DNA from: Singulisphaera sp.
GTDB taxonomy: Bacteria > Planctomycetota > Planctomycetia > Isosphaerales > Isosphaeraceae
Assembly (NCBI GenBank): GCA_027451445.1
Contig: DAIDJG010000251.1
Location: 1 to 33,346, forward strand
Length of the DNA stretch: 33,346 nt
Reading direction: 5' to 3'
The stretch's first letter is position 1; the number at the start of each line of letters is the position of its first letter. Shown in pieces: positions 21,664-27,825 of this stretch. The position numbers were made by a program, and so were the translations under genes. Below the pieces are notes generated by a model. The model had not been told where the DNA came from, searched no databases, and saw only the letters and a program-made list of their open reading frames with translations.

Positions 21664-22431
21664 TCACTGTCTCTCAATGAAGCGAAGCTGCTCGTCGGCC
21701 TCCATGAGCTCGTCGAGGATTCCCTCCAGCGAGCTGATGATTAACACTCCGTCCTTGACGCAGTACGCAAGGTCGAGCTGCTTGAGAAGCAGTCGCAGCG
21801 TGGTCTTCAGCGGGACACCGTGCAAGTCGAGTATGACAGGAGAGGTCGAGGTTTTCTCCGCCTCGTTCAAGCCAACGGGATCGACGTAGATCGGGATTCC
21901 CGGAAACTCGTCGTTCTCATTCTTTTTCGTCACTTGTCCAATATATTTGATGACATCTTCAAGCGGCGTTTCGTTGGGAAAGGTCATGTCGAGCGGCTTT
22001 TCCAGCGTCGCGAGGATCGCCGCGTTGCTGGTCGATCGATCTCGCTGCGCGAGGCGGAAGGATAGGCTAGCGATGCGATGTCGGACTTCCGCGTCATGAT
22101 GCGGACCCGGAGCCGGCCACAGCGACGAGGAGTCAGAGTGAGAGTCCGAAGAGACGCCCGATTGCGGACCGCGCTGCATTTTGCTCAGCGAACCGGCCGG
22201 CATCCCTCCTCCGTTCGTTCCGCTCGGAGTCCCTCTTGGCGGCACATCTTTCTTGACGTCCGCACTTTGGGGCACTCCCGACGAGGGATCGCCCGCACTG
22301 GAATCAGCGGCTCGGCTTTCGCTGCTTTGGGTTCCCCAATGGCCAAAGACCACGGCGCCGACCACGACAACGAGGATTGTGCTGCAACAAGCCAGGGCGA
22401 TGGGTTTCCAATGGGACCGCGGGCTCATCAT
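21664..22431 (-). CDS. Membrane-anchored STN-like domain protein, paralogue of the sigma factor C-terminus
   Basis: 255 residues. Residues about 10-32 are one membrane helix (ALACCSTILVVVVGAVVFGH), then a Ser/Gly/Pro-rich linker (to about 105). Next comes a folded region starting PGPHHDAEVRHRIASLSFRL and ending in an STN-like domain: [51 protein letters not shown] and LAYCVKDGVLIIS. Almost every segment after the linker matches the C-terminus of the sigma factor encoded just upstream (22507-24036), so this is a duplicated copy without the sigma part. The ATG at 22431 has GGAG 5 nt upstream. The STN-like domain should lie outside the cytoplasmic membrane. It is likely co-transcribed with the sigma gene (75 nt gap). 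It could modulate the sigma factor by pairing with the same ligand or partner; this is inference. Confidence 0.8.
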   Translation of the reverse strand: MMSPRSHWKPIALACCSTILVVVVGAVVFGHWGTQSSESRAADSSAGDPSSGVPQSADVKKDVPPRGTPSGTNGGGMPAGSLSKMQRGPQSGVSSDSHSDSSSLWPAPGPHHDAEVRHRIASLSFRLAQRDRSTSNAAILATLEKPLDMTFPNETPLEDVIKYIGQVTKKNENDEFPGIPIYVDPVGLNEAEKTSTSPVILDLHGVPLKTTLRLLLKQLDLAYCVKDGVLIISSLEGILDELMEADEQLRFIERQ

Positions 22432-22506
22432 TCAGGCTCCTACCGCATTTTATGAAGAGTTGTGTGACACCGAAATTGCAACGCCGCTGTGTCGTCCGAG
22501 ACAACC

Positions 22507-24036
22507 TCAGTGCGCATCTGATGAGGGCGTCTCCTCGGCGTCCATGAGTTCCTCGAGGATGCCTTCGGGAGAACTGATGATCACGAGGCGGTCTTTGACG
22601 CAATACGCCAACCCAATCTGCTTGAGCAACAACCGCAAGGTGGTCTTGAGAGGAACCCCGTCGAGGTCGAGCACGATCGGCGAGGTCATGGTTTTCTCTG
22701 CCTGCGCCAGACCGACGGGATCGATATAGACGGGGATACCCGAGTCGTTTGGGCCCTGCGTTGCCTGCTTGATGTATTTGAGCACGTCTTCGAATGGCGT
22801 TTCGCTGGGAAACGACATGTGCAATGGCTCGTCGAGCTTCGAAAGGATCGCCGCGTTCGCCTTCGATCGGTTGCTAGCCGCGAGCCTTGCAGAAAAGACG
22901 GTGATACGATGCCTGATCTCCGCGGCTTGGTGTGGTCCAGGTTGCGGCCACTGGGGCACGGCGAGCGGATTCGCATCGGGAGGCGTTGCACCAGGAATCA
23001 TACTCCCCGGCATCATGCTGGACCCCACTTGAGGCCCTCCACCGCTTCCCCCGCCATTTCGGTCGGAAGTGGTGGCCGGTTTCCGCGCCACTTTAAAAAA
23101 ATCTGGCCCCTGCTTCTTGCTCGCGGGTGGATCGATTGCGGGTGCGCCGCCGGCTTGACGTTCGTCACCTCCCGAATCCTGGTACGCATACACCGCCGCG
23201 CAGGCCGCGACGATTCCTGAGGCGACGCAGAGCGCTACGGGAATTGACTTCAGCTTGAACACAGACATCGTCGCCAACACTCCTTCCATCAGTGTCATGA
23301 CCGATCCCGAGACGGCGCCGATTTGGCCAGCAGTCAATGCCGTGGCGCCTCGGACCGTGGCATCCAAAAGGATCGGAGGAACCGCGGCCGAGGCATCCCG
23401 AGGCAGCTCGGCCAACAGCGCGGCGGACGCCGTTGTGAGCCCTCGCCGCACCAGGCGATCGCGGAGGAGGTCGCGTGCCCGGGCGAGCCGGCCCTTGACG
23501 GTTCCGACCGGACAGCCGAGCCGAGCCGCTGCTGCATCGTGTGTGAAGCCTTCCAGGTAGCACAGCACGATCAGGCTGCGGTACTTCTCGGGGAGGCGCG
23601 CGATCTCTTCGTGGAGGCAAACTTGTTGCTCACACTTTGGCTCGTTGTCCTCAAGCGCAGGCAGTTCATCATCCACGAGGATCTCTCGAGCCGACCGCTT
23701 CGCCGCGACCGCTCGCGACCGGAGCGCCACGCGCAGGGCCACACCGTACAACCAGTTGCCGAGCAGATCGCGATCGCGAAGCTGGCTCGCCTTGCGGGCG
23801 AGGACGAGGAACGTCGCCTGGAAGGCGTCTTCCACGTCGTTCGAATCGCGGAGCAGTCGGCCGCACACCCTCAAGACCATCGGCGCGTGCTGCGCGACGA
23901 GCGCCTCGAACGCCGCTTCATCTCGGCGTGCCACAAAACGGTCCAGGAGCTGCCGCTCGTCGAAGCCCGCGACGCTGCCCGAATGGAAAAGCTGCTCAAC
24001 CCACCGAGCCGGGGTGCGCAACGGACGGATCATCAT
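22507..24036 (-). CDS. ECF sigma factor fused to a membrane helix and STN-like domain
   Basis: 509 residues, versus about 180-200 for a plain ECF sigma factor. Residues about 28-100 are sigma region 2 ([50 protein letters not shown]). Residues about 143-195 are region 4 ([20 protein letters not shown], then [14 protein letters not shown]). A linker leads to one membrane helix, about residues 264-284 ([20 protein letters not shown]), then a Gly/Pro/Met-rich spacer. The C-terminus (about 398-490) is STN-like: [56 protein letters not shown]. Sigma regions should be cytoplasmic and the STN-like domain external. GGAGGG lies 6 nt before the ATG at 24036. No anti-sigma gene is nearby. Planctomycete ECF factors with long C-terminal extensions are known; this exact combination is not one I can name. 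Confidence 0.92.
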
Positions 24037-24122
24037 ACTCAACCCTCCTCACTCGCGGGACGTGCCACGAGGTACTGCGCGCGGGCAGGGAAACCGATAC
24101 AACTTTTCCGAAAGAATTCTGA

Positions 24123-26205: not shown

Positions 26206-27825
26206 ATGCATCTTTCACTCTCCCCGATGAAGCTCCCCGCGGTTCTCGCGGCGAGCTTGGTGTTCGTCTCGTCCTTCTCGGCGGCCATCGCCACCGACAC
26301 ACCGAGCGCGAAGACCGAAAAAGCCACCAAAGCCGAGAGCGAGGCGCCCGAAGTCTCGCTCTACGACGCGGTCCGCCAAGGCGCCGTGACCGTCGAAGCC
26401 GAAGGTACCGGCGATGGCCGGATGACCCTCTCGCTCACCAACCAGAGCAACCGTCGCCTTCGAGTCGTCCTTCCACCTGGCCTGATCGCCTCCGGAGCTG
26501 CTGGGCAGTTCGGAGGCATGGGTGGCGGCATGGGAGGCATGGGAGGCATGGGCATGATGGGTGGCATGGGAGGCATGGGCGGTGGCATGATGGGCGGCGG
26601 TATGGGCGGCATGGGTGGTGGAATGATGGGCGGCGGTGGCGGTACCATGCCCGCGACCATGGGTATGATGATGCTCGGCCGGCTGATCATGAGCCTCATC
26701 GGCGAGCGTGATAGCTGGGACCAGCGCTCGCTGATGTCGGGCATGATGGGTGGCATGGGCATGATGGGCGGCGGTATGGGCATGATGGGCGGCGGCATGG
26801 GTGGCATGGGTGGTATGGGTGGCATGATGGGGGGCGGTATGGGAGGTGGTATGCGTTCGGTGCCTCCAACCGATCTCCCCTCGGCTCTCGTGAAACCGGG
26901 TCAGACGCGTCACCTTCCCACCCGTCTCGTGGCCCTGAATGCGCCGAATGCCGAGCATCCGCTTACGCTGCCGGAGAAGGGTGAGAAGCTGGAGATCGGC
27001 GATATCAGCGAGCTGAACGCCGAGCCCAAGGTCCAAGCGGCCATGAAGCGTCTGGCAGCGGATAAGGCCCCGGTGCCGTTGGCGCAACTGATCATGTGGC
27101 GGCTGTCGGCGAAGCTGAACTGGGGCGATATCGTCGCGTTGTCCAAGAGCTGGGCCAATGGTCATGAAGTGGCCCTCGCACGGCATTTCGCCGACCAGTT
27201 CGAGAACCTTCCGGCCGGTGAGACGGGTCAGTTGCTGTACCAAGTCGAGACTACGGCTACGACTGGGAAGACGCTCGCAAGTGAGTTGAGTATTGTTCTG
27301 AAGGATGTCCCGGTGTTGGGACTGAAAACGAAGGCCGGGGTGCCTGACCGTCCCGAAGAGCCCGCGCTGGCGTGCCGTATCCAGGTAACGGGAACGGATG
27401 AGAAGCCCGAGGCGCTCGTCCAGGTTTTCATGACGGACGGCAACGCGGCATCTTGGGCACCGGCCGGTAAGTTTACGCTGCCGATCCCGCGCGATTCCGG
27501 AAAGATCAAGGGCGTCGAGTTTGCCGACGCGATGGCAGAAGGCATCCTGGGCCGTATGATCCGTGCCCAGGTGAGCAAAGGCCCGAAGGACAGCAAGGGT
27601 AAGCTCACCTACAAGATTCGAGTCGACAACGCCTCGCCGCTGATCCTGAACGGCCTGGCGATCCTGGGTGCTGAAACTTCGAGCAAGGAGATCCCCAAGG
27701 TCCTCTCCGGCATCTCCATCTCTCCGCGCCGGAGCATTACCGTCCCGGCCACCGGTGAGATGGTGGAGGCGTGGGGCCTCAAGAAAGGCGTCCGCGTGAT
27801 CGCTGCCGACCTGAGTGGCCTTTGA
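26206..27825 (+). CDS. Secreted protein with two Gly/Met-rich blocks
   Basis: 539 residues with a signal peptide (LPAVLAASLVFVSSFSAAIA, residues about 10-29). A short beta domain (about 50-95: GAVTVEAEGTGDGRMTLSLT) precedes two Gly/Met blocks at residues 103-146 and 178-216, built from units such as GGMGGM and GGGMMGG, with a 31-residue non-repeat insert between. The rest (about 220-539) is a non-repetitive region with a helical part (IMWRLSAKLNWGDIVALSKS) and a beta-rich end (SGISISPRRSITVPATGEMV). No enzyme motif is seen. The Met-rich blocks are probably flexible and could bind soft metals such as copper or be oxidised; this is speculation. The ATG at 26206 has AAGAG 8 nt before it; the ATG at 26227 is an alternative. 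It is followed by a strong terminator, so it is monocistronic. Confidence 0.85.
   Translation: MHLSLSPMKLPAVLAASLVFVSSFSAAIATDTPSAKTEKATKAESEAPEVSLYDAVRQGAVTVEAEGTGDGRMTLSLTNQSNRRLRVVLPPGLIASGAAGQFGGMGGGMGGMGGMGMMGGMGGMGGGMMGGGMGGMGGGMMGGGGGTMPATMGMMMLGRLIMSLIGERDSWDQRSLMSGMMGGMGMMGGGMGMMGGGMGGMGGMGGMMGGGMGGGMRSVPPTDLPSALVKPGQTRHLPTRLVALNAPNAEHPLTLPEKGEKLEIGDISELNAEPKVQAAMKRLAADKAPVPLAQLIMWRLSAKLNWGDIVALSKSWANGHEVALARHFADQFENLPAGETGQLLYQVETTATTGKTLASELSIVLKDVPVLGLKTKAGVPDRPEEPALACRIQVTGTDEKPEALVQVFMTDGNAASWAPAGKFTLPIPRDSGKIKGVEFADAMAEGILGRMIRAQVSKGPKDSKGKLTYKIRVDNASPLILNGLAILGAETSSKEIPKVLSGISISPRRSITVPATGEMVEAWGLKKGVRVIAADLSGL
26512..26853 (+). repeat. In-frame Gly/Met codon repeats
   Basis: Short in-frame units such as GGCATGGGAGGCATGGG and GGCATGATGGG recur throughout two blocks (26512-26643 and 26737-26853). 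They encode the Gly/Met blocks and are prone to length change by slippage or recombination. Confidence 0.85.

Follow-up and report, generated by a model that had tools for sequence, protein, structure and literature searches.

The gene at positions 22507–24036 of the Singulisphaera sp. contig analysed here (33 346 nt in all, referred to below as the window) is probably a two-product locus, giving rise to a membrane-tied sigma factor and to a sigma-less helix-plus-STN partner, of which the neighbouring gene would be a duplicated short copy. The full-length product, P0001, joins an ECF sigma factor, one membrane helix and a domain of STN-type fold in a single chain, and just before the helix there is a conserved methionine codon with its own Shine–Dalgarno (SD)-like sequence, from which translation of the shorter partner probably begins.

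Organization of the P0001 gene and its neighbour

A sequence-only reading of this DNA had described the 22507–24036 product as sigma regions 2 and 4 joined to one membrane helix and an STN-like domain, and the next gene (21664–22431) as a repeat of the helix and STN-like domain lacking the sigma part. Both descriptions were borne out, and the features of the two genes are as follows.

22507..24036, minus strand: sigma-TM-STN gene P0001, 509 aa, a single open frame with an ATG start
24044..24050, minus strand: SD sequence of the long product, GAGGAGG, 7 nt upstream of the ATG at 24036; anti-SD duplex −11.7 kcal/mol
23713..23901, minus strand: sigma-70 region 2, P0001 residues 46–108 (PF04542, Sigma70_r2, E 3e-9)
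23470..23622, minus strand: sigma-70 region 4, P0001 residues 139–189 (PF08281, Sigma70_r4_2, E 8e-16)
23280..23286, minus strand: internal SD-like sequence GAAGGAG, 11 nt before the internal ATG, conserved at the DNA level across the family
23266..23268, minus strand: putative internal start codon ATG, Met257 (family conservation of the Met; synonymous-shuffle, structure and control tests)
23182..23247, minus strand: predicted membrane helix, P0001 residues 264–285 (Kyte–Doolittle; N-in/C-out by flanking charge)
22942..23172, minus strand: disordered Gly/Pro/Met-rich linker, P0001 residues 289–365 (AlphaFold2 pLDDT below 50 at 289–355)
22570..22848, minus strand: domain of STN/secretin-N0/FecR_C fold, P0001 residues 397–489 (family HMM, AlphaFold2 model and fold matches, Pfam matches of relatives)
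21664..22431, minus strand: sigma-less TM-STN gene P0002, 255 aa, 75 bp downstream of P0001 on the same strand, with its own SD sequence GGAG at 22437–22440
22345..22401, minus strand: predicted membrane helix of P0002, residues 11–29 (Kyte–Doolittle 2.8)
21730..22017, minus strand: STN-fold domain of P0002, residues 139–234 (family HMM)

P0001 is an ECF sigma factor by three models, PF04542, PF08281 and TIGR02937, all of which scored above cut-off. A TTG codon two codons upstream of the ATG at 24036 is an alternative start, less likely to be used because it is the ATG that has GAGGAGG 7 nt upstream. The hydrophobic segment, already proposed to be a membrane helix, is predicted as a single clear one, with a mean Kyte–Doolittle value of 2.2 over residues 264–282 in a chain that nowhere else exceeds 1.4; the value is 1.6 or more in 89 of 94 family members. 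KLK precedes the helix and acidic residues follow it, and across the family net positive charge follows the Met in 79 of 83 genes. By these flanking charges the helix would run N-in/C-out and place the STN-fold domain outside. The order of sigma factor, one helix and C-terminal part in one chain is the same overall as in IutY-like fusions.

The earlier suggestion that no anti-sigma gene lies nearby held good among the neighbour genes tested around the locus, which encode a thioesterase-like protein, a radical SAM protein, a DUF2442 protein and an FHA-GAF histidine kinase. Docking of an anti-sigma factor by the segment between sigma factor and helix (residues 200–255) was considered and dropped, since the AlphaFold2 confidence of this segment is too low for such a contact to be claimed.

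The outer domain

P0001 taken alone gave a weak match to the Pfam STN model (PF07660, E 0.13, below the gathering score). The STN assignment of the sequence-only reading gains its firmness from the relatives, of which 62 of 80 matched the same model (best 1.3e-7), and from the predicted structure, which fits the fold. Other Pfam matches among the 80 relatives were to FecR_C (21 proteins) and to the GspD N0 model (four). The AlphaFold2 model of the domain, built from an 80-sequence alignment, has a mean pLDDT of 87.7, and its top structural match is the C-terminal domain of a FecR-type anti-sigma factor (4m0h, Z 9.5, 1.7 Å over 73 residues), with further matches to PupR (Z 7.8), to the signalling domains of FpvA and PupA, and to the secretin N0 domains of EscC, PilQ, XcpQ and GspD. 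Some phage baseplate proteins scored nearly as well, so that the fold alone leaves the function unfixed; homology to the STN family is nevertheless supported by a true secretin of the source genome (L067, PF00263), which has a domain of P0001's STN family. As modelled, the C-terminal domain of P0001 has the STN/secretin-N0/FecR-C-terminal fold. This fold is common to receptor STN, secretin N0 and FecR C-terminal domains, and since the best matches are FecR-type, a receptor sensing domain, as first supposed, is not the sole reading. FecR and PupR resemble P0001 in having an STN-like fold outside, one helix and signalling to an ECF sigma factor, but in FecR the chain is separate from the sigma factor whereas P0001 is one chain; the secretins PilQ, GspD and XcpQ share the fold of their N0 domains with P0001, but lack a sigma factor and belong to an outer-membrane channel.

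The prominence of FecR-type domains among the fold matches, together with the FecR_C matches within the family, is what would be expected of a Fec- or IutY-type circuit, with a fused FecR whose periplasmic part is the C-terminal domain and which a TonB-dependent receptor activates. However, the FecR domain PF04773, which precedes FecR_C, is absent from P0001, and neither PF04773 nor the TonB-dependent barrel (PF00593) was found in the source genome, a 10.9 Mb draft of 622 contigs in which the search controls were positive. As far as the draft genome shows, a Fec-type circuit is therefore unlikely, and this explanation is largely refuted and highly improbable.

Conserved signals for an internal start

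When 94 Isosphaeraceae sigma-TM genes were aligned from sigma region 4 to the helix, an equivalent of Met257 was found in 83, within the motif L-x-[EQK]-G-V-L-x-x-M. Where a glycine stands five residues before this Met (65 genes), it is encoded by GGA in 51 and by GGG in 14, never by GGC or GGT, although GGC and GGT make up 55% of Gly codons across these genes and the expected share of GGA and GGG is 44%; after thinning to below 40% identity the skew was 28 of 28 (p about 1e-10). This places GGAG or GGGG some 11 nt upstream of the internal ATG, a spacing within the range of ordinary starts in these genomes, where GGAG lies 5–12 nt upstream. The SD sequence is present in all 28 STN-bearing genes that have the Met. 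Of the four genomes searched, two have the exact anti-SD pattern CCTCC at the 16S 3′ end; it was not found in the source draft or in genome G015.

In control sets the amino acids were held fixed and the codons resampled 1000 times, and SD occurrence and folding energy were compared with the observed values. The SD sequence occurred in 88% of genes against the 59% expected from the amino acids, part of the signal being carried by the conserved EGV peptide (z 6.2; no resample of the 1000 above 72%), and weight is accordingly placed on the codon and structure tests. Folding of the mRNA around the internal ATG was relaxed relative to synonymous shuffles (z about +10), and the relaxation was confined to about −6 to +6 codons; in P0001 taken by itself it is modest, 6% of shuffles being equally open. 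Neither signal was found at two sets of control methionines, the conserved HGPM Met, which lies in sigma region 2 and was taken from 68 genes, and a further 200 Met codons. Among the Isosphaeraceae genes the SD sequence was present in none of the five that lack the ATG and in 75 of the 89 others (Fisher 2e-4), and with the Gemmataceae-like genome G029 added the association between loss of the ATG and loss of the SD sequence strengthened to p = 8e-6. The start signals were also detected in 26 genes of another family, and in the G029 genes they are weaker (z 3.7 and 4.6). Paralogues are non-independent samples, and the result holds after thinning. Conserved start codon, normal SD spacing and mRNA opened beyond the coding constraint thus coincide at one site.

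The long frame is intact throughout the aligned genes. Programmed frameshifting at the internal SD sequence was also considered and rejected, the aligned sequences having no conserved slippery site. We infer that a short form is translated from Met257; since the fused frame of P0001 is open throughout, the tethered sigma factor is expected as well. The idea that sigma factor and STN domain are made as one chain only stands as regards the open fused frame, but one observation named beforehand as refuting it, a conserved start codon from which the C-terminal part would be translated separately, is strongly indicated by the sequence and goes part of the way against it.

Pausing at internal SD-like sites has been proposed for membrane targeting in Escherichia coli. 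In the same manner, P0001 might be made only as the long chain, the SD-like site and the low mRNA structure serving as a ribosome pause that aids insertion of the helix. The site does directly precede the helix, and the unbroken long frame accords with a single product. Pausing alone would not call for an ATG; the Met is nevertheless retained in 83 of the 94 genes at constant spacing, and where it is lost the SD sequence is lost too. Moreover, sigma-less genes start at the equivalent Met, and one homology break falls exactly at the ATG. We consider this explanation improbable.

The sigma-less neighbour

From the helix onward P0002 is 49% identical to P0001 residues 257–509. The near-identical blocks noted in the earlier reading are represented by a 14-residue block common to both, but this block also recurs in other STN-domain proteins of the same and related genomes and is not specific to the pair. 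The length of P0002 (254–255 aa) agrees with the 253 aa predicted for the short product of P0001, as does the layout. In another locus (L099) the first sigma-less gene downstream agrees with the sigma gene in all 45 nt compared, counted from the internal ATG, and differs upstream of it. Sigma-less neighbours are infrequent: only two of the 25 sigma-TM-STN genes with sufficient downstream sequence have one, and a conserved pairing of sigma and sigma-less genes was accordingly rejected as a rule. Such scarcity is expected if the short product normally arises inside the sigma gene. P0002 is best read, from these sequence comparisons, as an occasional duplicate, a stand-alone copy of the internally started product. 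At L101 (G016:C59:1-2637) sigma fragments in two frames lie between two sigma-less STN frames, and the locus represents a sigma-TM-STN gene that is either decayed or mis-assembled.

Distribution and exchange of modules

The relatives named are from the Isosphaeraceae and comprise Singulisphaera acidiphila, Singulisphaera sp. GP187, Paludisphaera soli, Aquisphaera insulae and several MAGs. A survey of genomes had been suggested for both the fused architecture and the adjacent sigma-less copy, and only the former proved widespread: sigma-TM-STN genes were found in at least 12 of 19 Isosphaeraceae genomes (at least 13 with the broken copy in L101), a minimum count from the loci fetched. Searched with the helix-plus-STN part of P0001 at E 1e-25, 31 of 37 genomes of the same family gave matches, and 22 genomes representing the class's other families gave none. 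One more remote sigma-TM-STN protein (L178) was seen in another family. In all, 29 distinct genes combining sigma-TM and STN were counted, with one to three STN copies each; two of the sigma-TM proteins, L069 (G000:C5:3832-6669) and L086 (G001:C320), have three consecutive STN-fold domains.

The STN-fold domain is also found in secretins, in multi-helix proteins and in a TPR protein some 590 aa long. L100 (G018:C77) is a Ser/Thr protein kinase that has a single membrane helix and carries the domain at its C-terminus, and L083 (G015:C124) is a DUF4139 protein with the domain inserted inside. In the multi-helix membrane proteins L098 (G017:C195), L096, L016, L017 and L091 one STN-fold domain precedes the last helix, and at L098 four such proteins are encoded in tandem; no Pfam match accounts for these proteins, and an M56/BlaR1 identity, suspected for L016, L017, L091 and L098, found no Pfam support. 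Within the window, 26206–27825 encodes a protein of 539 aa that looks secreted and contains a long run rich in Gly and Met (GGMGGMGGG); similar runs occur in the linkers and tails of several STN-domain proteins.

The sigma-TM half is represented by about 25 paralogues in the source genome, with 54 matches in a Singulisphaera genome and 65 in G029. The outer parts of these paralogues are varied and include WD40-like, CarboxypepD_reg, Poly_export, AhpC/TSA, di-haem oxidoreductase and CBM96 domains, which places P0001 within a large family of tethered sigma factors whose outer parts can be exchanged. Enzyme-like examples are L054 (G000:C589; di-haem oxidoreductase/cytochrome c) and L060 (G000:C93; AhpC/TSA redoxin).

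The enzyme-like outer parts of several paralogues fit less well with a purely sensory role. The outer domain may instead be an effector, with the envelope protein produced for the most part by internal initiation and a smaller share of chains bearing the sigma factor to report the state of the protein itself, be it an STN adaptor, a redoxin, a di-haem oxidoreductase or an exporter part. Besides the range of outer parts, it is in keeping with this proposal that internal start signals are common to STN and non-STN members; the STN fold, on the other hand, is usually a binding module without catalysis, and for these genes we regard an effector role as unlikely.

Comparison with known systems

Tethering of an ECF sigma factor is not new in itself, having precedents in IutY and in groups ECF48/52/53 (PMC8999054, PMC9249621). 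IutY (ECF243) of Pseudomonas putida is a fusion of sigma factor, helix and FecR-like part, from which cleavage by Prc and RseP frees the sigma factor (PMC8999054, PMC9249621). P0001 resembles IutY in combining an ECF sigma factor, a single membrane helix and a periplasmic part of related fold in one chain, but differs in lacking the FecR domain PF04773, in coming from a genome in which no TonB receptor was found, and in having a long disordered linker, a probable internal start and dozens of paralogues with other outer parts.

Another comparison is with the ECF sigma factors of planctomycetes that carry C-terminal extensions, such as the ECF01-Gob type of Gemmata. They belong to the same expanded sigma-TM family, and the 65 relatives in G029 carry the internal start signals, but the outer domain is WD40 in theirs and STN in P0001. 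WD40-bearing planctomycete ECFs have been described, and in Tuwongella several ECF sigma factors were recovered from detergent fractions (PMC8567305). In the literature surveyed, the coverage of which was partial, an internal start is not described for these extended ECFs, and nothing directly relevant was found on sigma-STN fusions or on internal starts in sigma factors.

Working model

Our current working hypothesis is that full translation of the P0001 gene yields an ECF sigma factor that a single helix anchors at the inner membrane and whose STN-fold domain lies outside, and that another start, at Met257 immediately ahead of the helix, yields from the same mRNA a sigma-less helix-plus-STN protein of 253 aa (residues 257–509), of which P0002 would be a stand-alone duplicated copy. 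The outside STN domain would bind another STN-fold or envelope partner. The signalling domain of PupB binds the periplasmic part of PupR (PMC9249621), and since both have the STN fold, candidate partners are the short product, the TPR-STN protein and a secretin. A change at the STN domain would lay the long chain open to cleavage, first by a periplasmic protease and next by an M50 site-2 protease, whose cut would free the sigma domain to reach promoters. By analogy with IutY, and given that M50 proteases, including one of 687 aa, are present in the source genome, we infer that proteolysis is the likeliest route of release. The short products have the same helix and outer domain, and so may have partners and proteases in common with the long form; we hypothesize that they act to set a threshold for release, or as decoys.

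The bolder proposal, for which we see the balance as slightly favourable, is that every gene of the planctomycete family, which numbers some 25 to 65 copies in a large genome, encodes two nested proteins whose ratio or competition sets when the sigma factor is released, and that P0002 is a short product fixed by duplication. Planctomycetes have unusually many ECF sigma factors, the C-terminal extensions of which are unexplained. If the proposal is correct, each gene would provide, through its conserved nested start, a sigma factor along with its sigma-less counterpart, and the annotation of dozens of genes per genome would need correcting. That the STN fold is found in secretins, in a kinase and in a sigma factor also points to a single outer module serving several signalling outputs.
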